Assembly (NCBI GenBank): GCA_020853095.1
Contig: JADYZN010000075.1
Location: forward strand, 1 to 36,420
Reading direction: 5' to 3'
Source of the DNA: Phycisphaerales bacterium
GTDB lineage: Bacteria > Planctomycetota > Phycisphaerae > Tepidisphaerales > Tepidisphaeraceae
Length of the DNA: 36,420 bases
Shown: piece by piece, positions 17,994 to 35,525 of the stretch
How the letters are laid out: every line of letters begins with the position of its first letter
How positions within the stretch are numbered: position 1 is the first letter of the stretch
The notes under the pieces: generated by a model
Told to the model about the DNA's origin: nothing
The model's database searches: none
What the model saw: only the letters and a program-made list of their open reading frames with translations
Position numbers and translations under genes: made by a program

Positions 17994-19142
17994 TCAATTG
18001 GAAATGCGCTTGCCCACCGTTTGGCCTTCAACCATGTTCACGGCTTGATATTGCACGCGCGGGGCGTCCTGACCGTCGATTAATGAACAAAGGGTGTCCG
18101 CCGCCTTTTGACCGATGGCCGTCCAATCGCAGGCGACATGGGAAATCGTCCGGCCGGGCCAGTAGGTGTGCATCGGCTGGATGCCGTAATCAAACGCGAC
18201 CAGCGAGATTTGTTCGGGGACGCGACAACGGAAAGCTTCGCTGGAGAGCAGTGGAACGAGATAACTGGAGGTTGTGGCGACCAGCGCGGTGACGTTTTCA
18301 TGTTGCGGCAGGTAAAAATCGAGCAGCAGGTCGGCCATGCGGGAACGGTCGTAAGGACCGACATCGACGACGTTCTGCGTTATGTCGAGGCGGGCGCCTC
18401 GAAGCGCGTGGGCGCTCTTGAAGCCATCCAGCCAGGTGGCCGCCAGAGGATCATCCAGCGTACGGGAGAGGATGGCGTAGGTCTGGTGGCCGTTGGCGAC
18501 CAGGTGTTGATCGATCATCTGGGCGGCGTTGCGATACGAGGGAAGGATGGTATGCAGGCCGGCGTGCTGATATTCGCGTCCGACGACGACACAGGGTACG
18601 TGTCGGGAGATGGCCAGGAGCGATTCGAGCTGGTCGGGTACGGGATGAACCCAGATGATGCCTTTGAGGCCTCGGGTCTGGATTTTTTCCAGGAGCAGAT
18701 GGGGGTCATCGCCGTTGCGGTTTATACGGAGGACGCTTTGCTGCAATTCACGGCGTTCGGACCAGTTGCAGACGCCGTCGAAGACCGTGGCGGTGTACCA
18801 GGCGTTGATGGAGGTGGCCCACCAGGGTGGGACAAAACCAATGCTGGCGCCGGGCAGTAGAGGAGACCGAGTGGTCAAAGGACGCAGATAGGTGCCTCGG
18901 CCGCGACGACGGGTGACGGCGCCGTTGCGCTCCAGAACCTTCATGGTGCGGCGGATGGTCTCGCGAGCGACGTTGTACTGCTGTGCCAGACTGACTTCGG
19001 GTGGAAGCTTGGTGGGAATTTTTAATCCTCGACGACTCTGCTCCAACAAGTCGGCGATTTGCTGGTATTGAGGCTTGGCCAGGCCCTTCGATTCTTGAAC
19101 GACGGGAACTTTAGGATCGTGTTTGGCGATTAAATTTGCCAT
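17994..19142 (-). CDS. GntR-type regulator with LacI-like sensor domain (cassette C)
   Basis: This 382-residue regulator has a GntR winged helix at about residues 20-90 (PPEVSLAQQYNVARETIRR, NGAVTRRRGRGTYLRPL) and a LacI-type sensor domain. It is strikingly similar to the protein at 19599-20714, sharing SIGFxPPWWATSxNxWYTAT, VHPVPxQ, RHVPCVVVGREY and YWPGRTIxHV, so the two are paralogues. The conserved PPWW segment at the start of the sensor domain is not typical of LacI proteins and may shape the ligand pocket. The gene leads the minus-strand cassette C and is followed after 10 bases by the GH43/GH32-like gene. Inverted repeats over its promoter (19166-19199) suggest autoregulation. Confidence 0.88.
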   Translation of the reverse strand: MANLIAKHDPKVPVVQESKGLAKPQYQQIADLLEQSRRGLKIPTKLPPEVSLAQQYNVARETIRRTMKVLERNGAVTRRRGRGTYLRPLTTRSPLLPGASIGFVPPWWATSINAWYTATVFDGVCNWSERRELQQSVLRINRNGDDPHLLLEKIQTRGLKGIIWVHPVPDQLESLLAISRHVPCVVVGREYQHAGLHTILPSYRNAAQMIDQHLVANGHQTYAILSRTLDDPLAATWLDGFKSAHALRGARLDITQNVVDVGPYDRSRMADLLLDFYLPQHENVTALVATTSSYLVPLLSSEAFRCRVPEQISLVAFDYGIQPMHTYWPGRTISHVACDWTAIGQKAADTLCSLIDGQDAPRVQYQAVNMVEGQTVGKRISN

Positions 19143-19598: not shown

Positions 19599-20714
19599 AT
19601 GCCGACTATTAAAGAAGTTAACAGTTTGGCAAATGGCCCGCGATATCTGGAGATCGCCCGCAAGTTTGAGGCCAAGCGGGCGTTGTTGGAGCAGCCATTG
19701 AAGTTGCCATCCGAACAACGGATGGCCATGGAGTATCGAATCGCCCGCGACACGCTGCGTCGGGCGCTGGTATTGCTGGAAAGCCGGGGGGCGGTGACGC
19801 GACGACGGGGCCGGGGGACTTTTTTACGGCCGCTTCAGGCCCAGCCCAAGAGCGCGCGGGGCAGCAGCATTGGTTTTATCCCGCCCTGGTGGGCCACATC
19901 GGTGAACACCTGGTACACCGCGACCGTATTTGACGGCATCTCAAGCTGGGCGGACCGGCACGATTGCCGACTGAGCGTGATGCACGTCGACCGGTACGAC
20001 AACGATGAGCACAAGCTGTTGGAAAAAATCTCAACCCGCGACCTGACTGGGTTGCTCTGGGTGCATCCGGTGCCGGAACAAAAATCGCTGCTGACCGCGG
20101 TGGGTCGGCATGTTCCATGCGTCGTTGTCGGCCGCGAATACGAAGACGCCAACGTTCACGCGGTGCTTCCGGATTATCGTCAGGCGATGGCGTTGATGGA
20201 TGAACATCTGATGGCCAGCGGGCATTCGATCTATTCGATCATCGGCCGCGGCACCTCCGACCCGTACGGCGCCAGTTGGCTGGCCGCCGCGCGTGATGCT
20301 CACGCCCGCAGGGGGAGTTACTTCGACGATCACGATTATTATGTGAACATCACGCCATTCGACCGTGAAAAGCTGGTCGAGTTGCTGATGGATTTTCACC
20401 TGCCCACCCACCCCAAAAGCCGTGCGCTGGTGTTGACCTCGTCCAGCTACCTGATCCATCTGTTGGCGCGGGAACGGTTTCGCCAGGCGATGGGCGGAGA
20501 GATATCGGTGGTTGCATTTGATTATGGCGAACAGGCGATGGAATCCTACTGGCCGGGCAGGACCATCACCCATGTCAAATGCAACTGGGATGAGATCGGC
20601 CGCAAGGCGATCGAAGTGTTGTTTTCTCTGATCGAGAGGAATGACGCCCCCAGAACGATCCACGAACCGGTGGCGCTGGTCAAAGGATCGACGGTGGCTC
20701 GGTTCCCCACCTGA
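19599..20714 (+). CDS. GntR-type regulator with LacI-like sensor domain (cassette B)
   Basis: A 371-residue paralogue of the regulator at 17994-19142, read in the opposite direction. The winged helix occupies about residues 15-80 (PSEQRMAMEYRIARDTLRRA, RGAVTRRRGRGTFLRPL). The sensor domain carries SSIGFIPPWWATSVNTWYTA, LWVHPVPEQ, RHVPCVVVGREY and the LacI-type end segment ISVVAFDYGEQ. It should respond to a sugar or oligosaccharide. It is the natural candidate to control the PEP-CTERM/prepilin/hydrolase run that begins 143 bases downstream, and it may cross-talk with its paralogue through the shared upstream region. No Shine-Dalgarno is visible; the promoter placement suggests a leaderless message. 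Confidence 0.88.
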   Translation: MPTIKEVNSLANGPRYLEIARKFEAKRALLEQPLKLPSEQRMAMEYRIARDTLRRALVLLESRGAVTRRRGRGTFLRPLQAQPKSARGSSIGFIPPWWATSVNTWYTATVFDGISSWADRHDCRLSVMHVDRYDNDEHKLLEKISTRDLTGLLWVHPVPEQKSLLTAVGRHVPCVVVGREYEDANVHAVLPDYRQAMALMDEHLMASGHSIYSIIGRGTSDPYGASWLAAARDAHARRGSYFDDHDYYVNITPFDREKLVELLMDFHLPTHPKSRALVLTSSSYLIHLLARERFRQAMGGEISVVAFDYGEQAMESYWPGRTITHVKCNWDEIGRKAIEVLFSLIERNDAPRTIHEPVALVKGSTVARFPT

Positions 20715-25721: not shown

Positions 25722-25925
25722 GGTATTTTCCGCTCATCCATCGGATGGCGGACGCCGGGGGATTTGGGCTCCCAACGGATGCCGTGATCGCCGGGCCAGG
25801 GTTGGCGGTGGTCGAATGGTCCGCCGAGGATGTCGTCAGGAATCCGCTCCGGAAAGGCCTCGCAAACCGGCAGTCTGGGGTCCAAATGTTTACAACGCCT
25901 GTACCTGCGGACAACGGATGTGTAA

Positions 25926-26012
25926 CGGAGAGGGGGAGATTCGAACTCCCGCTACCCTTGCGGGCAGACCGGTTTTCGAAACCGGCGCGTTCAACCGCTC
26001 CGCCACCTCTCC
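25926..26012 (-). tRNA. tRNA-Ser (anticodon CGA)
   Basis: On the minus strand an 87-base cloverleaf can be drawn. The acceptor stem is GGAGAGG (26012-26006) with CCTCTCC (25933-25927) and discriminator G (25926). The anticodon stem CCGGT/ACCGG encloses TTCGAAA, giving anticodon CGA (25978-25976). A long variable arm (TGCCCGCAAGGGTAGC region) and the T-loop TTCGAATC mark a class II serine tRNA. The CCA end is not encoded. It reads UCG codons. Confidence 0.95.
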
Positions 26013-26025
26013 AGCGGTAGGGATT

Positions 26026-26079: not shown

Positions 26080-28098
26080 TTATGGTTCGGCCTGTTGCAA
26101 CAGCACCGGATCCGGCGTCGGGGGGTTGCGGCCGGCGGGGATGTCGTAGCCGCCGAGATGGATTTGTTCGCCGCCGGTCATCGCCCACAACCAGAAGGTC
26201 ATCGCCGCAGTCGGGCGTTTGCGGGTGTCCACGCCGGCGGCTTTTTGCAGTTTCAAAAATACAAACCCATCCGAATTTGACAGCTCGCCGGTCACTTTCG
26301 CACCCTCGGCCGGATTTTGGGTGTCGCCGCTGAAAGTGCCGGTGATGTTTCGCTTGCCATCCATCTTCAGATCAAACTGGAACGGCCGGCTGGAATCGCC
26401 CAGATTGACCTTGGCGAACGTAACTCCTTTTTCCAGAAGGCTTTCCATCTTTTCAATCTCCGCCGCCAAACGATCGTTGTCCACCAGTTCCAATTCCACG
26501 CTCGCCCCTTGGAATCCGGTCTGTTTGCCCGTGATTTTGGGCGTGCCATCGACCCACAGCAGATCAAGATTGAAATCCCTGCCCCGTCCCAGCAGACCCG
26601 TGCCCGAATGCTTGATGTTTTTGGTGCTTTTGAGCGTGATTGTCGCCCCCAGCAGCGTCTGGACGGCCGATCCTTCCAGTTCATATTCGCCGCCGAGATG
26701 CAAAATCGACACCGTTCCGCCAAGTTGTTGCTTTCCCTTTGATTTGAGCGTGATGAACAGCGGCATCGGATAGGGATGGGTCGAGTTGATCATCGCCTGC
26801 CCGCGCAGTTCCACTCCATTGGCCACCTGTTGATCCAGAAATTTCACCGTGTCGGCGCTGCGCTGCGTCAGTTCCTCCTTTGAAAGGCATTGGGTGATCT
26901 TCAACGTCGCGTTCATGCCGTTCAATTTGCCGATGACCTGTCCTTCCTCGCCCGGCTCAAGCAACCCCTGCATGTACGGCAGCGCCAACATCGGCTTGTT
27001 GTTTTCCCATTGCACGACGGCGGGCTGATTGAACACCCCGGGCAACGGATTGTCATTGTTTCGCAGGTCGGCCATGGCGAACGCCGGCTTTCCTTCAATG
27101 CGAAGCAGCCCCATGCGAACCTGCACCGGCCGGCCGTTGGGATTGTTCGGATAGGTCAATTCCCCCTCCAACTGGCAATACATCTTGAACCGATCCGCGA
27201 ACGTTTCCACCGCCTGTTGGCGTTGTTTTTGCGTTGATTCGTAATTGGCCAGGATCGCGGCATAGACCTGAGCATCTGCTTTCAGAGCCAAACCCTTCTC
27301 ATGCAGCTTCATCGCCTCCCCATCCCCTTCGGCGACCAGCGTGATGGTCATCGGATTGCGCGGCCCTTCACCCACCGGGCCGACCACGTTGCCCAAACTG
27401 AGGACCACCTGCGGCACATCCCCCTTGCGCAACTGCACCGATGCGGTCACCTCCCGCTTCAATGGCGGGTTGTATTCGCTGTAAATCACGCCACGCCAAG
27501 AGCTTGCGCTTCCGGTCAATTCCAACGCATAGCGAGACAGGTTCAACTTCGGATCGGCCGATGCCAGCACCAGATTGGGTTGGCCCAGCATTTTCTGCAC
27601 GGATTCCACAAGGGCCTGGCGTTTCTGCTGCTCCTGTTGTGCCCTGGCACGCAGCGCCTGCGCGACGGTCTGTCCTTCGAGGCGGGTAAAGACCGACTTG
27701 CCGATCAACCCCATCATGCGGGTTTCCGGGTCCAACATCAGCCGATTGCCGGAAATTTCGCAATTAAAGACGACCGTCTGCCCCTGCGGGACCACCATCC
27801 GCACCCGCCCGCCGTCCAGCACTGAATAATCAAGCGTCACGGCCTGGAGAATCTCGCCGGTGTTGTCGCTGCCCAGCATCAGCGTGGCTTTGCCATCCTT
27901 GCCGAACTCGACGCCGGCCAAATCCTGTTCGGCCGCCTGAAACCAGGTGCCGACGAGCTGGGATTCGTTGGAAACCGGCACCGCGGGTTCATTGGAGGCA
28001 TCCGAACCGGAATCGGATGAGGAGGATTCGGATTTTCCACATCCCGCCATCAACACCAGCCCCAGCACCAGCATCGACCACAAAGACATGCGTTTCAT
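26080..28098 (-). CDS. Large lipoprotein of unknown function at the end of the efflux operon
   Basis: The 672-residue protein starts with a lipoprotein signal (MKRMSLWSMLVLGLVLMAGC, lipid-bearing Cys20; Met at -3 is slightly unusual), then a Ser/Asp-rich linker. Residues about 45-130 (SQLVGTWFQAAEQ, GVEFGKDGKATLMLG, CEISGNRLMLD) resemble a small lipocalin-like or DUF5640-like beta-domain. The rest is beta-rich with an Ala/Gln-rich helix (about 140-165) and several strands of a repeated type, such as LKSKGKQQLGGTVS and LKMDGKRNITGTFSG. I do not recognise a full-length family. ATG 28098 has GAGGT 6-7 bases upstream; a much longer open frame reaching to 28638 is rejected because it runs inside the pump gene. 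It follows the pump gene by 86 bases. Confidence 0.75.
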   Translation of the reverse strand: MKRMSLWSMLVLGLVLMAGCGKSESSSSDSGSDASNEPAVPVSNESQLVGTWFQAAEQDLAGVEFGKDGKATLMLGSDNTGEILQAVTLDYSVLDGGRVRMVVPQGQTVVFNCEISGNRLMLDPETRMMGLIGKSVFTRLEGQTVAQALRARAQQEQQKRQALVESVQKMLGQPNLVLASADPKLNLSRYALELTGSASSWRGVIYSEYNPPLKREVTASVQLRKGDVPQVVLSLGNVVGPVGEGPRNPMTITLVAEGDGEAMKLHEKGLALKADAQVYAAILANYESTQKQRQQAVETFADRFKMYCQLEGELTYPNNPNGRPVQVRMGLLRIEGKPAFAMADLRNNDNPLPGVFNQPAVVQWENNKPMLALPYMQGLLEPGEEGQVIGKLNGMNATLKITQCLSKEELTQRSADTVKFLDQQVANGVELRGQAMINSTHPYPMPLFITLKSKGKQQLGGTVSILHLGGEYELEGSAVQTLLGATITLKSTKNIKHSGTGLLGRGRDFNLDLLWVDGTPKITGKQTGFQGASVELELVDNDRLAAEIEKMESLLEKGVTFAKVNLGDSSRPFQFDLKMDGKRNITGTFSGDTQNPAEGAKVTGELSNSDGFVFLKLQKAAGVDTRKRPTAAMTFWLWAMTGGEQIHLGGYDIPAGRNPPTPDPVLLQQAEP

Positions 28099-28184
28099 AC
28101 CGTGACCTCGTTTTGGGAACCTTTTGGGATGATCACCCGCCGCAATCACTGTAAAAACGACACCGGTCCATGTCCATGGGTTTG

Positions 28185-31100
28185 TTAAATTATTGCGGGA
28201 ATGGCATCGGGGACGGTCCTCTCCTGCCGCATCCGCAGCCAGCGCCGCCGGCGGATCCAGTAGAACAGCACCGGGATCATCAGATCGACCACCTCGTCGC
28301 TGATGAGCAGCCCGCCCAACACCGGCGCCGCCATCGGGCGCATGATCTCCGCGCCCGTGCCGGTGGCCCAGAGCATCGGCACCAGCCCCACGATGGCCAC
28401 GCCCTCGGTCAGCAGTTTGGGCCGCAGCCGATGCACCGCGCCTTCGATCACGGCTTGCCGCAGCTCGGCCAGCGACTCGATTTTTTCCAGCCCGCCGTGC
28501 CGGTCGATCGCGTCGCGCAGATAGACCAGCATGATGACGCCGGTCTGCGTCGCCATGCCGAACGCGGCGACGTAGCCGATGGAAACGATCACGCTGAAGT
28601 TGAAGTTGAACAGCGCCTGGAACATCACCGACCCGCACAACGCGCCCACCACCGCCAGCAGCACCAGCAGCGTGTCCATCATCTCTCGGAAGGTGACGTA
28701 CAGCAGGAACAATATCGCCAGGATCACCATCGGGAAGATCACCGCCATCGTCTGGCGGGCGCGGACCTGATGTTCAAATTCGCCCGACCATTCAATCGAC
28801 ATCCCCGTGCCGGCCAGCTCGGCCTCGATGGGGCGGATCGCCTGTTGGGCCTCCTCCACAAAGCCGACGATGTCCCGGTCGCGCACGTTCAACGTGACGT
28901 AATTGCGCAGGCGGCCGTTTTCGCTTTTGATCATCGCCGGGCCTTCGACGATGCGGATGTCCGCCACCAGCCGCAGCGGAATCTGCACCATCGGCGTCTC
29001 GTCTCCGGCGGCCTTGTCATCCTTCGCCGGAACCAGCAGGTCGGCCGGTGAGGTCCGCGCCTCCACCAGCACGTCGCCGATCGCCTGCGGATCCTGCCAG
29101 TAGGCCCGGGCGTAACGCAATCGCACCGGAAACCGCTGTCGGCCCTCGATGGTCTGCGTGATCCGCTGGCCGCCCATCGCCGCCTCGACCGCCATGGCGA
29201 CGTCGCTCATGTTCACCCCGTACCGGGCGGCGTTTTCGCGGTTGATCGTGATCTCAAGATAACTTTTGCCGGTCGCCTGGTCCGCCACCACGTCCACCGC
29301 GCCTGGAACCTGTCGCAACCGGGTGGCGATCTGGTTGCTGATGCGCTGCAGGTCGGCCACCGAATCTTCCAGTGACTTGCCCGTGGGGCCGTACACCTTC
29401 ACCCCGATCTGCGTGCGCACGCCGGTCGCCAGCATGTTGACGCGATTGATGATCGGCTGCGTCCACGCATTGCCCCATCCGGGCATCTGCAGATCGCTGT
29501 CCATCTCGCGCAGCAAATCCTGTTTGCTCTTGTGCCACAGGAACAATTTCGCGGCCAGGGGTTTGTCGAACTGACCGCGAAAATCCCGAACCGCCGAATC
29601 GTCCGGAACCTGCACGACATACCCCTCGTGCCGGGCCGATCGCAACAATCCATCGGTCAGCAGGGAATTGATCTCCACCACCGCGCCGTCGAACAGCTCC
29701 CAATCGAGCTGGTGCATGCGGTCGCGCCACAACCGGTCGTATCGGTCGCCCAGTTTCTCATGGACCCGCTGGGAAAAATCGCTGGTCCTTCCCCCCAGCG
29801 AACGCCTGGCCCAATCCAGCGCCACCCGCCAGGCCGGCGGATTGGAAATCAGCAGGTTCTCCCGATCCTCCACCCAATGACGATCCACCATCTCGCGCCG
29901 GAACGTCTGCAGCAGCTCATCCACCTGTTCCTGACGCGGCGCCAGCGGCCATGGGATGCCATGTTGCATGGCCTTGTCGATCAGCAGTTGGCGATCCTCG
30001 GCGGACAAGTCGTGCGACAGCGCGGGATGACCCTGGTGGGGGGGCAGTGATTTGATCTGCGTGATCAGCTCATCCAGCGCCAGCGACACCAGTTGTCGAT
30101 GCACATCCGGTTCAAATTCATCCTGTTTCTGCCGGATGAACTGTCGCGTATGGCGGTCAAATTCCGTCACCACGTGCATGGTGGCTTCGTTCAACAGCGT
30201 TGATTCATCCGCATCGGCCGGCGGTTTGATCCAGCCGCGCTGTTTCAACTGTCGCAGGATCAATTGGGCCTGCGCCTGGGCATCGTCGAAATGAAGCATG
30301 CGCTTGGGCCAGAGGTGTTTGGGGCGCAGCGTGATGATGGTTTCGATCATGTCGATGGGGGAGGGGTCGGTGCTGGTGTCCGCCCGGCCCACCTTGCCGA
30401 CGGCCGATTCCACCTCCGGGAACGTGCGCAGAATCCGGTCGCGTTCGGTCACGTCATCGACCGCCTGTGCCATCGTCACGCGCGGGGACGTGGTGGGCAT
30501 GTCGAGGATGCTCCCCTCATCCAGCGACGGCATGAATTCGCCGCCAAGCTTGCGGAATCGCGTGTCCGCCAGCAGCGCCACCAGGATCAGCGACAGCACC
30601 GCCGCCCCGCGCAACGACCATTTGCCCCGCCGGGTTCCCAGCAGGACGAACACCGCCCCCGTGCCGACGGCCAGCGCGGAAACAAAGTGCGAGTCGATGA
30701 ACGCCGCCGCCAGGACCATGATGATCGCCAAAATCCACCAGACCACGCCGGGGCGGTCGATCATCCACGAGAGCAGTGGTTTGTAGATGTCGATGAAGCT
30801 GCGGACGATCCAGTTTTCCATTTCGCCGCGCAGTCGGCCGCGGATGAAAATCGGGATCAGCGCCGGCACCAGCGTCACCGCCAGCACCGCCACGCCGATC
30901 ATGGCGAAGCTCTTGGTGAACGCCAGCGGGTGGCTGAGTTTTCCCTCCTGTCCGCCGAAGGCGAAAATCGGCAGAAACGAGATCAACATGATCAGCACGC
31001 TGAAGAAAATCGGCCGGCCCACCAGCCGGCAGGCCTTGACCACGACCTCGGTGGTGTCGCCGCGCACCTTCTGGTTCCCAAACCGGTCGTGCAGCTCGTG

Positions 31101-32333
31101 GGTGGCGTTTTCCACCATCACCACCGCCGCGTCGACCAGGATGCCGATGCTGATGGCGATGCCGCTGAGCGACATGATGTTGCTGGGGATGTCCAGGTAA
31201 TACATGAACAAAAAGCTGACCAGTACCGCCAGCGGCAGCGTGATGCAGACCACGAACGCCGAGCGAAAATGCATCAGGATCAGCAAAATCGCCAGGCTCG
31301 CGATGATGATTTCCTCCTTGAGCGTGCCGGTGACGGTGTGGATGGCGCTCTCGATCAGCCGGGTGCGGTCGTAAAACGGCACGATCCGGACGCCTTCGGG
31401 CAGGCCGCTCTGGATCTGTCGGATTTTATCCTTGATCGCCGCCGTCACCGCCAGCGGGTTTTCGCCGTAGCGCATCATCACCACGCCCCCCACGGCTTCG
31501 CGCCCGTCTTTTTCCAGGGCGCTGCGACGAAACTCCGGCCCAAGCTGCACCGTGGCGACGTCCTTCAGCCGCACCGCCACCCCCTTGCGCGAGGCCACCT
31601 CGACTTCCTCCAGGTCCCGCACCCCTTTGAGCCAGCCCACCCCGCGCAGCAGGTATTCGCCGTTGGGCGTGGCCATCACCTTGCCGCCGACACTCATGTT
31701 GCTGTTGGCGATGGCGGCATACAGCGTCCCCAGCGGCAGGTCGTACACGCGCAGCTTGGCCGGATCGACGTCGACCTGGTATTCGCGCACGAACCCCCCG
31801 ACGCTGGCGACTTCGGCGACGCCGCTGATGCTGTTGAGCTGATAGCGCACCGTCCAATCCTGGATCGCGCGCAGCTCATCCAGCGACAAACCATTTCCCT
31901 CGACCGTGTACCAGAAGATCTGCCCCAGCGCGGTCGCATCCGGCGCCAGATACGGCGTCACGCCCGCCGGCATGGACGCCTGCGCCGTCGCCAGACGTTC
32001 CAGCACGCGCGTGCGCGCGAAATAAAAGTCGGTCTTGTCGTCGAAGATCACGTTGATCATCGCGAAGTTGAATTCGCTGGACGACCGCACCGCCTTCACG
32101 CCCGCCAGCCCCTGCAACTGCACGCTCAGCGGATAGGTGATCTGTTCCTCGATGTCCTGCGGGCTTCGGCCCATCCAGTCGGCGAAGACGATCACCTGGT
32201 TTTCCGACAAATCCGGTATCGCATCCACCGGCGTGTGCAGCACCGCATAGATCCCCCACAACGCCACGCCCAGCCACGCGATGATCACCATCGCCCGGTT
32301 GCGCACGCAGAATTCGATAATTCGAGCGATCAT
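28185..32333 (-). CDS. cusA: CusA-type heavy-metal efflux RND pump, unusually long
   Basis: The 1382-residue inner-membrane protein is a proton-driven RND exporter. DLSENQVIVF, GQIFWYTVEG, GILVDAAVVMVENATHEL (D401) and HRLRPK (K1306) are family hallmarks. The three methionines of the E. coli CusA Cu(I)/Ag(I) pathway (M573, M623, M672) are matched by DMPTT (M612), DMIET (M662) and NMLATG (M967), so copper or silver is the likely substrate. E. coli CusA is about 1047 residues; the excess lies mainly between about 676 and 944, a Gln/Asp/Arg-rich helical insertion of about 256 residues. Around 550-592 there are two extra hydrophobic stretches before GGEFMPSLDEG. The position of the CusA relay Glu (E939) reads Gln1263. 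It begins 4 bases after the adaptor stop. Confidence 0.93.
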   Translation of the reverse strand: MIARIIEFCVRNRAMVIIAWLGVALWGIYAVLHTPVDAIPDLSENQVIVFADWMGRSPQDIEEQITYPLSVQLQGLAGVKAVRSSSEFNFAMINVIFDDKTDFYFARTRVLERLATAQASMPAGVTPYLAPDATALGQIFWYTVEGNGLSLDELRAIQDWTVRYQLNSISGVAEVASVGGFVREYQVDVDPAKLRVYDLPLGTLYAAIANSNMSVGGKVMATPNGEYLLRGVGWLKGVRDLEEVEVASRKGVAVRLKDVATVQLGPEFRRSALEKDGREAVGGVVMMRYGENPLAVTAAIKDKIRQIQSGLPEGVRIVPFYDRTRLIESAIHTVTGTLKEEIIIASLAILLILMHFRSAFVVCITLPLAVLVSFLFMYYLDIPSNIMSLSGIAISIGILVDAAVVMVENATHELHDRFGNQKVRGDTTEVVVKACRLVGRPIFFSVLIMLISFLPIFAFGGQEGKLSHPLAFTKSFAMIGVAVLAVTLVPALIPIFIRGRLRGEMENWIVRSFIDIYKPLLSWMIDRPGVVWWILAIIMVLAAAFIDSHFVSALAVGTGAVFVLLGTRRGKWSLRGAAVLSLILVALLADTRFRKLGGEFMPSLDEGSILDMPTTSPRVTMAQAVDDVTERDRILRTFPEVESAVGKVGRADTSTDPSPIDMIETIITLRPKHLWPKRMLHFDDAQAQAQLILRQLKQRGWIKPPADADESTLLNEATMHVVTEFDRHTRQFIRQKQDEFEPDVHRQLVSLALDELITQIKSLPPHQGHPALSHDLSAEDRQLLIDKAMQHGIPWPLAPRQEQVDELLQTFRREMVDRHWVEDRENLLISNPPAWRVALDWARRSLGGRTSDFSQRVHEKLGDRYDRLWRDRMHQLDWELFDGAVVEINSLLTDGLLRSARHEGYVVQVPDDSAVRDFRGQFDKPLAAKLFLWHKSKQDLLREMDSDLQMPGWGNAWTQPIINRVNMLATGVRTQIGVKVYGPTGKSLEDSVADLQRISNQIATRLRQVPGAVDVVADQATGKSYLEITINRENAARYGVNMSDVAMAVEAAMGGQRITQTIEGRQRFPVRLRYARAYWQDPQAIGDVLVEARTSPADLLVPAKDDKAAGDETPMVQIPLRLVADIRIVEGPAMIKSENGRLRNYVTLNVRDRDIVGFVEEAQQAIRPIEAELAGTGMSIEWSGEFEHQVRARQTMAVIFPMVILAILFLLYVTFREMMDTLLVLLAVVGALCGSVMFQALFNFNFSVIVSIGYVAAFGMATQTGVIMLVYLRDAIDRHGGLEKIESLAELRQAVIEGAVHRLRPKLLTEGVAIVGLVPMLWATGTGAEIMRPMAAPVLGGLLISDEVVDLMIPVLFYWIRRRRWLRMRQERTVPDAIPAII

Positions 32334-32337
32334 GGTT

Positions 32338-34158
32338 TCACCTTCCCCCCGGATTCAACCGATTTTCCGAATCCACCAGAAACGCGCCGCGCGTGACCAC
32401 GCGGTCCCCTTCGGACAATCCCTCCAAAACCGGGTAATACCCCTGCGCCTCGGGGCCGGTGGCGATTTTTCGCAGGTCAAAGACGCCCGGCGAGGATTCA
32501 ACGTAGACCATCATGTCCCGCCCCGTGTTGATCACCGCCGAACGCGGGATCGACAGCACCGCGCCGGCCGGCGCGGTGGCCGGCCGGGTGGTGGCGATGG
32601 GAACCTGTGCCGCCGTCGGCAACGTCTCCACCGCCGCGCCGCAGGTCGGCATTTCGCTGCCGTAATAGGGATTGGAGGTTTGCCCAACCTGTTGCAACCA
32701 GTAGGGCTTGTCGGTCATGGGACAGCGGAAAACCTGGATCGCCTCCGATCCTTCCGGCACGCCGGTCGCCCGCCCGATCTCCATCATCGCCAGCGAAACA
32801 TCCCGAAACGTCTTCCGCAAATCCGCCAGGTTCTGCCCGGCGGACCGCTTTGCGGCATCGGTCAACTTGTGCATCGCATGTTCCAGACGCGGGTCGCTAT
32901 GCAGCGGCGACAATATCGTCGCCAGTTGAGCCAGATGATCGGCCACTCCATCGGCCCGGTCATGCGCCAATAGATCGTGCGCCGACAAATAAGGGGTCAG
33001 TCCCTGTTGAAACACATGCGCCTCGGCCGACTGCGTGGCGGGGGCGACCGCCGGCGGGGCGGACAATTCCCCGGCCTGGATCGGAATCGCGATGGATGCC
33101 TCGGCGAACATCCCCGGCCGAAGTTTCAATTCCGGGTTGTCCACCTCCACCCGCGCATCCAGCGTGCGCGTCCGCGGGTCCAGTTCAAACGACAAGAACG
33201 TCACCTGTCCCTTGAACGACTCGTTCGGCAACGCCTCCACCGTCACGTTGACGCTCTGCCCGATGCGCATCAACGGCACATCCCGCTCATAAATTTTCGC
33301 CTGCAACCACAACGTGCCCAGGTCGGCGATGGTGTACGGCCGGTCGCCCACCTGCACGTAGGACCCTTCATAAACGTCCTTGCGGATGACGATCCCGCTG
33401 ATCGGGCTGGTGACGGTCAGGTGGGTTGGAACCTGCCCCGACTGGTCATACTGCTGGTCCATCCGGTCCAGTTGCTCCCGGCTGATCCCCCACAGGACCA
33501 GCTTCTGCATCGACGCATTGTAAACCGTCGAGGCGTCGGCCCTGGCTTCGACCGAAGCATCGGCCGGCAGATCGTGGACGCGCTTTCGCGCCAGCAGATA
33601 TTCCCGCTGGGCGGTGTAGACCTCCGGGCTGTAGATGGAATAGACCGGATCGCCCTGTTTGACCGACTGGCCCGTGTAACGAATGAACAATTCATCCGCC
33701 CGTCCGCCCACGCGCGCGCTGAGCTGGGCGACCTTGGTCTCATCGTAATCCAGCACGCCCAGGGCGCGCACCTGCGAAATCAGCGTGCGCATCGTGACCG
33801 GCGAGGTTTCGATCCCCGCCATCGCGATGCGCCTTGGCGTCAACTGCACCCGCGCCAACACGTCGTCGGGCAACGTCTGCTTCGTCCCTTTCTTGCGCTG
33901 GATCAACGGCATCCCGCAGATCGGGCAGATCCCCGGTCCTTCGCGCACCACGTCCGGATGCATCGAACAGGTGTATTCGATGTCCGAAACCTGCTGTTGC
34001 ACCGCCGCCGGCCGGGTCCATTTGTCCCAGTGGTTCTGGATGTTTTCCCAGTACCCCATCAACAGCGCCGCGATGACGAACACCATCACAAACCGCAGCC
34101 TCGCCATCGCGACTTTGCTCACCACCCACGCATCGTGAAGAAAGATCTTTTTATTCAT
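32338..34158 (-). CDS. cusB: CusB-type periplasmic adaptor with metal-binding and DUF3347-like domains
   Basis: The 606-residue membrane-fusion protein links the pump to the outer-membrane channel. After an N-terminal membrane anchor (about 21-36) comes a heavy-metal-binding domain, YTCSMHPDVVREGPGICPIC (62-81) then GMPL, with Cys, Met and His ligands. The adaptor body follows: beta-barrel, lipoyl (SPISGIVIRKDVYEGSYV) and hairpin regions (about 100-365). Residues about 378-512 look like an embedded DUF3347 domain (DLRKTFRDVSLAMMEIG, VFRCPM, YWLQQ, NPYYGSEMPTCG), a domain often found separately or at an end of such proteins. The membrane-proximal segment (530-606) follows. The ATG overlaps the stop of the channel gene by four bases, and AGGTG lies 6 bases upstream. 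Confidence 0.9.
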   Translation of the reverse strand: MNKKIFLHDAWVVSKVAMARLRFVMVFVIAALLMGYWENIQNHWDKWTRPAAVQQQVSDIEYTCSMHPDVVREGPGICPICGMPLIQRKKGTKQTLPDDVLARVQLTPRRIAMAGIETSPVTMRTLISQVRALGVLDYDETKVAQLSARVGGRADELFIRYTGQSVKQGDPVYSIYSPEVYTAQREYLLARKRVHDLPADASVEARADASTVYNASMQKLVLWGISREQLDRMDQQYDQSGQVPTHLTVTSPISGIVIRKDVYEGSYVQVGDRPYTIADLGTLWLQAKIYERDVPLMRIGQSVNVTVEALPNESFKGQVTFLSFELDPRTRTLDARVEVDNPELKLRPGMFAEASIAIPIQAGELSAPPAVAPATQSAEAHVFQQGLTPYLSAHDLLAHDRADGVADHLAQLATILSPLHSDPRLEHAMHKLTDAAKRSAGQNLADLRKTFRDVSLAMMEIGRATGVPEGSEAIQVFRCPMTDKPYWLQQVGQTSNPYYGSEMPTCGAAVETLPTAAQVPIATTRPATAPAGAVLSIPRSAVINTGRDMMVYVESSPGVFDLRKIATGPEAQGYYPVLEGLSEGDRVVTRGAFLVDSENRLNPGGR

Positions 34159-35525
34159 GGTTGCACCTGTTGTTCGGGTTTCTCATTGACGCCCATTCGC
34201 TCAACGTCCACCCCCGCCAGCTCCTCCATCTCCGCCAGACGCTGTTCGCGCGATGCCTTCGCCTCGACCAGCATCAATTTCACCTCCAGCAGCGTCCGCT
34301 GGCTGTCGATCAATTCCGTGAACGGCACCGAACCGGCCGCGTACGCCTGCCGCGAGCTGTCCAGCACCTGCCGGGCCGCCGGTAAAATCCGATGTTCCAG
34401 CAGTTCCACCTGCCGTTGGTTGTTTCGCATCGCGAACAACGCCGCCACGAATTGCGCCGACTTGTCCAACCCCGCCTGATGGGCGATCGCCTCGGTCCCC
34501 CGCAGCATCGCGCGGGCCTCCTTGATCGCCCCTTCGATCCCCACGAAATTGGTCGGAACCATCACCATCGCCCCCAGCATCCGCGACATGTCCCCCGTCA
34601 ACGCCGCCATCGGGTTGATGTTGGGGATGTACGCCATCCGCGCCAATTCCAGGGCATCCTTTCGCCCCTCCACCTGCCGGGCCAGCGCGGACAACTCCGG
34701 ATTGCCGGTCGCCGCCATCGCGATCAACGTCGCATCATCCGCCGACAAAATGCGGGCGTCGGGCAACTGGTCCGGCAACGCCAGTTCCGCCGTCGCCGGC
34801 CGGCCCATCGCCGCGTTCAACGTCGAGCGAAGCTGCGGCTCCAGCGACTCCAGGTTTTGCAGCTCGTTTTCCGCCAGGCGCTGCTGAATCTGCGCTTTGA
34901 GCAAATCCTGCTGCTGGCCTCCCGCCTGCAACCGGTTGGCCGCGGTCTGCGTCAGAAGCCGCAACAATTCCAGGTTTTCCCGGCCGATGCGCAGGCGCTG
35001 CGCCAACAGCGCCCAGTCGAGATACCCGCTGATCACCCGCCGTTGAATTTCAAACCGTTTGGCCGCGAAACGATCGCCGGCGGCCCGCGCCTCTTCCAGG
35101 GCGATTTTCCCGCGCCTGGCGGTTTTGGTCGGAAATTCCAGCCCATCCAGCTCGGCCGACAGCGTGGTGCGGTCCCAGGCGCTCATGCTCTGCGAGGAGA
35201 ACATGTATTCAAATCCCAGTTGCAGATCGACGTTGGGATACGCCCCCGCCTGCTGCACCCGCGCCATCGCCGCCTGCCAGTCGAAATAACTCGACTCCAG
35301 CTCCCCGTTGCACAGCAGCGCCCGCCGCAACACCTGCTTCCAGGTGGCGTTGGCCGGCAACGGCTCGACGGGTCGGCTGGTCGGCGGCGATTGATAAACC
35401 TTCCCCGCCCGATCCACCCGCTCCTGTTCCGCCGACCGCTCGGCCGGCGCCAACACGCACCCGCCCGCCAGCAGCGCCAAGGCCAAACCCCCGGCCACGA
35501 CGATGGTTTTGATGAGTCCTGTCAT
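34155..35525 (-). CDS. TolC/CusC-type outer-membrane channel lipoprotein
   Basis: This 456-residue protein carries a lipoprotein signal (MTGLIKTIVVAGGLALALLAGGC, Cys23) and the long helical repeats of the outer membrane efflux protein family, for example AQRLRIGRENLELLRLLTQT, ELLEHRILPAARQVLDSSRQ, AYAAGSVPFTELIDSQRTLL and EVKLMLVEAKASREQRL. It should form the trimeric outer channel of the CusCBA-like exporter. The start ATG at 35525 has only a very close GGAG, so translation may be modest or depend on the upstream gene. It precedes the adaptor gene with an ATGA overlap, which supports fixed stoichiometry. The order C-B-A is the same as in E. coli cusCFBA, without the small CusF between C and B. 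Confidence 0.9.
   Translation of the reverse strand: MTGLIKTIVVAGGLALALLAGGCVLAPAERSAEQERVDRAGKVYQSPPTSRPVEPLPANATWKQVLRRALLCNGELESSYFDWQAAMARVQQAGAYPNVDLQLGFEYMFSSQSMSAWDRTTLSAELDGLEFPTKTARRGKIALEEARAAGDRFAAKRFEIQRRVISGYLDWALLAQRLRIGRENLELLRLLTQTAANRLQAGGQQQDLLKAQIQQRLAENELQNLESLEPQLRSTLNAAMGRPATAELALPDQLPDARILSADDATLIAMAATGNPELSALARQVEGRKDALELARMAYIPNINPMAALTGDMSRMLGAMVMVPTNFVGIEGAIKEARAMLRGTEAIAHQAGLDKSAQFVAALFAMRNNQRQVELLEHRILPAARQVLDSSRQAYAAGSVPFTELIDSQRTLLEVKLMLVEAKASREQRLAEMEELAGVDVERMGVNEKPEQQVQP

Follow-up and report, generated by a model that had tools for sequence, protein, structure and literature searches.

Tripartite efflux systems of the resistance-nodulation-division (RND) superfamily are usually described with a fairly fixed pump body, and it is the adaptor and the outer-membrane channel that give length and docking. 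The locus analyzed here is a stretch of 36,420 nucleotides from a Phycisphaerales bacterium (GenBank assembly GCA_020853095.1, contig JADYZN010000075.1, positions 1 to 36,420 of the forward strand), which is called the window throughout. It encodes a pump of the heavy-metal efflux (HME-RND) or CusA/CzcA family with a long helical insertion in its periplasmic part, in the following called the arm. In excerpts of a review (PMC8277102), the RND porter domain is said to be built from four strands and two helices (beta1-alpha1-beta2-beta3-alpha2-beta4), and the porter subdomain PC1 of HAE-1 and HME pumps is described as continuous. The porter insertion points given in these excerpts are limited to beta2-beta3, beta1-alpha1 and, in SecDF, alpha2-beta4, and beta3-alpha2 is absent from them. 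At the former sites large domains are spliced into the porter-type domains of SecDF (the P1 head), the hopanoid transporter and NPC1/Patched (same excerpts), a feature shared with the window pump, which differs from all of them in the insertion site. In the cluster I MmpL proteins (HAE-2), e.g., MmpL4 and MmpL5, the second periplasmic domain (PD2) also carries a long insertion of antiparallel helices. Its position is beta2-beta3 (PMC8277102, in part), and in MmpL5 it forms a coiled coil of 196 residues on which efflux depends (PMC12501195, in part). In contrast, the arm of the window pump is at beta3-alpha2. A survey of the open-access literature on insertions in CusA and RND pumps, planctomycete metal efflux, coiled-coil insertions in CzcA and the CusA cleft yielded no paper on such an arm.

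The pump gene and the insertion have the following positions in the window:

28185..32333, minus strand: gene for an HME-RND (CusA/CzcA family) permease with a periplasmic arm, 1382 aa, ATG start.
29523..30308, minus strand: the insertion (arm), aa 676-937, from the alignment with Escherichia coli CusA and 40 relatives and from the model, found in 42 of 42 loci.

The permease scored 981.1 bits with the CusA/CzcA family model TIGR00914, which is above the cut-off of 701.45, and it also matched PF00873 of Pfam. An AlphaFold2 model of aa 183-1382 was superposed on the CusA structure 3ne5 with a Z score of 46.2 and an rmsd of 2.8 over 636 residues, and Z scores of about 44-46 on CusA structures showed an RND fold with the transmembrane (TM) bundle and the porter domains. 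The 1382-aa open reading frame (ORF) is a pump of the CusA/CzcA family. It has in common with E. coli CusA the overall fold, the periplasmic methionine triad together with E625, the proton-relay residues D405 and K984 (CusA numbering), and the adjoining genes for an adaptor and an outer-membrane efflux protein. It differs from CusA by a 262-residue arm instead of the loop 637-642, by an extra TM hairpin, by a Q at the position of E939, and by the lack of most other methionine pairs.

The alignment with CusA of E. coli K-12 (L068) equated the conserved W636 of CusA with W675 of the window pump, and aa 676-937 stand in place of the six-residue CusA loop 637-642 (RPGMTM), a net gain of 256 residues. 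Independently, a phmmer alignment with CusA from the PDB was interrupted at query positions 678/939, and also at 537/591. An initial annotation had claimed a charged and helical insertion of about 256 residues in the periplasmic porter domain of a CusA-type pump, and distances of 50 and 305 residues between the metal-site methionines instead of 50 and 49 in CusA. The spacings were verified by the alignment, and the insertion by the alignment, by its composition (37 K+R and 42 D+E in 262 residues) and by AlphaFold2 modeling. A hydrophobicity scan of the arm did not reveal any 17-residue stretch above the threshold. The insertion site is in PC1, between strand beta3 (aa 660-669) and helix alpha2 (aa 937-947), and the residues M662 and E664 sit in beta3, which runs directly into the insertion. 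As 42 independent loci carry it at the identical position, the insertion must be more than a chance event, and it is an inherited part of the protein.

To characterize the arm, aa 655-966 were modeled with AlphaFold2 using 41 alignment rows, which resulted in a pLDDT of 87.7 and a pTM of 0.81. The arm was predicted to be almost wholly helical, and the same arm helices were present in the longer model of aa 183-1382 (pLDDT 75.3, pTM 0.65). Shorter helices were found between the two long helices A and B and at the base of the arm. The parts are the following:

30048..30215, minus strand: arm helix A, aa 707-762, 56 residues (DSSP H53-108, repeated in the 1200-residue model as H528-580).
29628..29777, minus strand: arm helix B, aa 853-902, 50 residues (DSSP H199-248, repeated in the 1200-residue model as H671-720).
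29778..30047, minus strand: arm tip, aa 763-852, small helices, weakly conserved (model and conservation).

At 1.5 Å per residue, helices A and B are about 84 and 75 Å long. Because of the order and connectivity of the helices and their hydrophobic pattern, helices A and B would most simply pair as an antiparallel arm of about 75-85 Å with a small tip and a base.

The conservation was unevenly distributed along the arm. Columns conserved to at least 80% made up 10 of 36 and 8 of 34 positions in the proximal parts of the two helices; the distal parts had 1 of 20 and 0 of 16 such columns and the tip had 5 of 90. The invariant or near-invariant residues are located at the base. In three genomes, i.e., G406 (in that stretch identical to L067), G501 and G109, the base is kept and most of the distal arm is missing. 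As the base is better conserved and is kept when the distal arm is lost, it is the part that most likely matters everywhere. The arm would best be read as a scaffold for bracing or docking, with an essential base and an accessory distal part. For a comparison within the genus of the window, the pump of G418 was used. The omega values were 0.27 in the arm and 0.08 and 0.07 in the two core parts that flank it, and the amino acid identities were 74% in the arm and 94% in the core. The arm is under purifying selection, yet its rate of change is about four times that of the core.

The distribution of the arm was determined with an alignment of the insertion as query in a collection with one genome per species (84,980 species, all phyla). 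There were 63 pattern matches, of which 42 encode relatives. All 42 carry the insertion, and all are titled as Planctomycetota or subgroups thereof, among them isolates as well as Singulisphaera acidiphila DSM 18658 with its complete genome. The scan of the collection uses one nine-residue pattern, and therefore the absence of the arm outside of the Planctomycetota is not proven. In a sample of the phylum the arm was found in 22 of 392 genomes with a profile and in 16 of 392 with a single sequence; the former number may be 20 of 392, because the matches in G134 (43-84 of the model) and G294 (58-132, in a 292-aa frame) are weak and probably no arms. In the class of the window 28 of 397 genomes have the arm, one of them (G484) as a fragment at a contig end. 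When the class was searched with the part of the pump that follows the insertion (198 genomes), all relatives with at least 58% identity over most of the query were of the arm type, including G406 and G501 with their shortened arms, and the next group followed at 44% identity or less.

A phylogenetic tree of 64 proteins was calculated from the columns that are present in E. coli CusA, and hence without the arm (IQ-TREE, LG+G4, short search, no bootstrap). The tree does not include the partial loci L027, L035, L044, L053, L058 and L063, two of which (L058 and L063) were also excluded from every full-length alignment. The 38 arm rows formed one side of a single branch with an SH-aLRT of 100. The closest arm-less row belonged to G138 (L148), a genome from the phylum sample (149 genomes) with three tandem copies of an arm-less pump with 49-51% identity (contig 95, 27094-35345). 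A long-branch warning of IQ-TREE concerned L003 and L158, both of which are arm-less. In an earlier FastTree tree the support for the arm clade was 0.419 after re-rooting, a step that can shift support labels. The computations show a single origin of the arm and, in the searched collection, its restriction to the Planctomycetota. The initial annotation had considered that the insertion might be standard in its subfamily, with known structure and function; it is indeed standard in one planctomycete clade, but the searches turned up no structure and no function for it.

Across the 40 relatives the identity to the window pump was 56-68% outside of the arm and 22-31% within it, with L056 reaching 81% and 36%, respectively. 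The arm length in the compared columns was 241-284 in 36 of the 40, and the outliers were L030 with 358, L059 with 213, L066 with 218 (with unread bases) and L067 with 130 residues. The surplus of about 100 residues in L030 separates the first base helix from helix A. The nearest relatives without an arm are planctomycete CusA-like pumps (e.g., L148, L152, L159), some of which have about 30 extra residues in the same loop, while the loop of L148 has the length of that of CusA. In the arm-less planctomycete pumps L152-L157, L159-L162, L165, L168 and L087-L097 the beta3-alpha2 loop has about 18-37 extra residues, among which Trp, Phe and Pro are often abundant, e.g., in KKKIEYKFLNYVPPLFHPLFHWILPDERTITK. 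The arm-less loop start WRKKKIEY resembles the arm start WPKRKIEY, and a loop of this kind may therefore be the origin of the arm. An origin from mobile elements or phages was rejected, because the arm had no match among 72,556 plasmid records and 50,697 phage records, and in a scan of viral contigs none of 56 stretches was confirmed.

The second difference to CusA is located before PC1:

30558..30752, minus strand: expanded TM7 region, aa 528-592, with an extra TM hairpin (three hydrophobic helices instead of one in CusA).

The hydrophobic segments 530-546, 550-566 and 573-589 replace the single TM7 of CusA, a gain of about 47 residues, and the helices in the model of aa 183-1382 are 528-544, 549-566 and 572-592. 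The extra hydrophobic stretches before PC1 that had been noted in the initial annotation are thus real, but the topology change that had been suspected was rejected on two grounds. Two helices were added, and therefore the parity and the topology of the periplasmic domain are kept, and the loop between the second and the third segment is strongly basic (RRGKWSLR in the window), as is expected for the cytoplasmic side. A hairpin is present in 18 of the 40 relatives and absent from 22. On the tree three changes of this trait were counted; two of them fall inside the arm clade, and the remaining one affects arm-less rows with extra residues that do not resemble a TM hairpin. That arm and hairpin form one unit was rejected, since they are separable and the hairpin changed twice within the arm clade. 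In L033 only two segments are over the threshold and the third is weak. In four close relatives of the window pump, i.e., L056, L118 (G519), L119 (G428) and L123 (G445), the compared TM7 region comprises about 101-108 residues, and in L056 five hydrophobic segments, equivalent to two extra hairpins, were found. In the arm-less L159, L160 and L161, 42-98 residues at the junction of TM7 and PC1 look soluble and unlike a TM hairpin.

The metal site of CusA is conserved in the window pump and its relatives:

30498..30500, minus strand: M612, equivalent to CusA M573, metal site, conserved in 41 of 41 rows.
30348..30350, minus strand: M662, equivalent to CusA M623, metal site, conserved in 41 of 41 rows.
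29433..29435, minus strand: M967, equivalent to CusA M672, metal site on the horizontal helix, conserved in 40 of the 40 rows that have a residue (41 rows, one gap).

The three methionines of the periplasmic site and E664 (E625 in CusA) are all present. The replacement of E939 by Q was also found in 10 of the other 40 rows. At the methionine pairs 410-501, 403-486, 391-1009 and 271-755 of CusA the window pump has M406/I493, L399/M478, M387/M1331 and F268/R1057, so that outside of the triad only the pair 391-1009 is intact, and no pair is whole in all relatives. The relay methionines M403, M501 and M271 of CusA are kept in 0 of 41 rows each, and M755 in 2 of 41. Because the methionine relay is largely broken, the pump was filed under the HME-RND CusA/CzcA family as a whole, and a putative specificity for copper and silver would follow from the methionine triad alone. 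The loss of most relay pairs makes an uptake from the periplasm likelier than one from the cytosol, and the metal probably enters from the periplasm and moves through the M612-M662-M967 site in the ordinary way. The arm of the window pump contains no Cys and five Met, and the contents in the arms are 0.1% Cys, 1.6% His and 1.6% Met. The only conserved Met, His or Cys is M719, besides one His in 22 of 41 rows, and a metal-chelating arm was rejected on the basis of composition and conservation.

Two genes for partner proteins adjoin the pump gene on the same strand:

32338..34158, minus strand: gene for a periplasmic adaptor of the CusB/HlyD_D23 type, 606 aa (PF16576, PF13437, PF19335).
34155..35525, minus strand: gene for an outer-membrane efflux protein of the TolC/OEP type, 456 aa (PF02321).

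The adaptor carries a heavy-metal-binding domain (HMBD) at aa 62-86. An adaptor homolog is encoded in 37 of the 42 loci, or in 37 of the 38 with upstream sequence; four of the five loci without it begin within the pump gene, and L065 has 7 kb of upstream sequence without an adaptor. The gene for the outer-membrane protein was found in 25 of 42 loci, several of which are short. As both partners are retained, the arm adds to the tripartite system and does not replace a partner. To our knowledge, no TolC-type partner of MmpL5 has been described, whereas the window system has kept both adaptor and outer-membrane protein. The ORF clusters around the 42 loci were mostly antisense ORFs, and widely only the pump, the adaptor and the outer-membrane protein stood out; a small Cys-containing ORF was present in 11 of the 42 loci. 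An extra stretch of the adaptor (aa ~376-545), with CPM....YW.QQ...NPYYG..M..CG, was found mainly in Phycisphaerae-type loci and has a weak match to the LIC13259/LIC11441 family (1.9e-5 at 412-507). In the window the pump gene is directly followed by a lipoprotein-like gene of about 670 aa (26083-28101, minus strand), for which neither a Pfam family nor a homolog in the 42 loci was found, and downstream of the pump operon there is a tRNA-Ser (cga) at 25925-26013 (minus strand). At 17994-19142 (minus strand) and 19599-20714 (plus strand) the window has divergent GntR/LacI-type regulators with a similar domain make-up.

The site of the arm has consequences for its putative orientation. The insertion point beta2-beta3 is at the other end of beta3, and therefore the point of exit of the arm should be the opposite end of PC1, which faces the membrane. 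In CusA two residues served as gauges of cleft opening, R705 of PC2 and N651, which lies close to the end of alpha2 (PMC8092243, in part). The arm is joined to the start of alpha2, the helix with the N651 equivalent near its end, and therefore it should move with PC1. A reading that combines these observations, and for which as a whole the chances are about even, is that the pump is the inner-membrane part of a planctomycete tripartite efflux system of the copper/silver type, that its arm arose once and early by growth of the beta3-alpha2 loop of PC1 in one pump lineage, and that the arm may serve as a rigid helical scaffold outside of the metal path. The arm would have its root at the end of PC1 that faces the membrane, next to the metal-entry cleft, and could brace the pump against the adaptor ring, a neighboring protomer or the envelope, while its base could shape or stabilize the PC1 side of the cleft. 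Several points weigh against this scaffold reading: the longer model is only of moderate quality, the pairing of the helices was deduced from connectivity and hydrophobic pattern, a fast-evolving arm with a dispensable distal part would also fit a weak function, and ORF clustering of the 42 loci did not reveal any conserved neighbor besides adaptor and outer-membrane protein that was recognized as a partner of the arm.

A tentative proposal, which falls well short of being probable, makes the arm a dedicated part of a planctomycete-specific tripartite metal pump, with a mechanical or docking role: it would couple the opening of the cleft to an outside contact, such as peptidoglycan, the adaptor ring or a metal donor in the periplasm. 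Docking in the narrower sense, with the arm as a site that recruits a periplasmic donor (a metallochaperone or a cuproprotein) or peptidoglycan so that metal is handed to the cleft, is rather unlikely. The root of the arm on the PC1 wall of the cleft, at the start of the very helix that holds the N651 equivalent at its other end, would suit such a role, the large loss of the cytosolic methionine relay would make periplasmic delivery more important, and the fast evolution would be compatible with a co-evolving interface; however, no conserved extra gene was recognized in the 42 loci, the arm is nearly devoid of metal ligands, and the adaptor already has a heavy-metal-binding domain.

Somewhat less likely still is a tolerated, nearly neutral growth of a permissive surface loop without any dedicated role. 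The low identity within the arm in most relatives, the loss of the distal arm and the short inserts of other planctomycete pumps at the same loop would be in line with it, but 39 of the 40 aligned relatives keep at least 213 arm residues and the remaining one keeps 130, and in the class search all relatives with at least 58% identity keep at least the base. The omega of the arm, the invariant or near-invariant residues at the base and the confidently predicted fold also speak against neutrality.

The similarity to MmpL5 raises the question of whether the arms of three protomers form a helical conduit, as was proposed for MmpL5 in the consulted part of PMC12501195, where the long helical hairpin likewise belongs to the second periplasmic domain. 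This is improbable, because the insertions are at opposite ends of beta3 (beta3-alpha2 here, beta2-beta3 in the cluster I MmpLs, PMC8277102, in part), adaptor and outer-membrane protein are both retained, three genomes do without most of the distal arm, and the arm has no methionine-rich stretch.

Similarly improbable, if not slightly more so, is the capture of a DUF507-like helical protein that was spliced into the pump. Its basis is a structural comparison with VIA, in which the best match of the arm model was the DUF507 crystal structure 8t8k (Z 7.2, rmsd 4.4, 114 residues, 14% identity, model 24-277), and AaDUF507 has been described as helical and Y-shaped, composed of a base and two arms (PMC10439177, in part). 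All VIA matches had Z scores below 8, though, and 7.2 is within the range that is reached by unrelated helical models. Foldseek searches of the arm model against the PDB and BFVD did not yield any match at an E-value of 0.001 or better, and the best one (E 0.54) was a protein other than DUF507. The window arm had no Pfam match at E 0.01 and three weak ones at E 5, none of which was DUF507; the 41 arm members had scattered weak matches in Pfam and NCBIfam, where TIGR00914 reflects flanking pump sequence, and DUF507 (PF04368) was absent from the best 25 of 49 Pfam families across these members. In 101 genomes of the class DUF507 was not above the cut-off in a single one. A search of the PDB with the single arm sequence gave no sequence match, and with the arm profile it gave designed helical repeats, YacP and similar proteins at E 2e-4 or worse, which was read as helix composition. 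An artefact of assembly or gene prediction is refuted by the single unbroken frame in the window, in independent isolates, in metagenome-assembled genomes and in the complete S. acidiphila genome, and by the same-genus copy that is 94% identical over the part that follows the insertion.

Taken together, the lineage-wide arm is on the pump itself, at a site outside of the published porter insertion points, and its presence points to a further permissive site in the porter fold. If the arm indeed serves a dedicated mechanical or docking purpose, it would be the second, independent long helical arm of an RND pump after that of the MmpL proteins, built from the opposite end of the fold. Nature has provided full-length, distal-arm-deleted and arm-less forms of the pump, with which the role of the arm can be probed.

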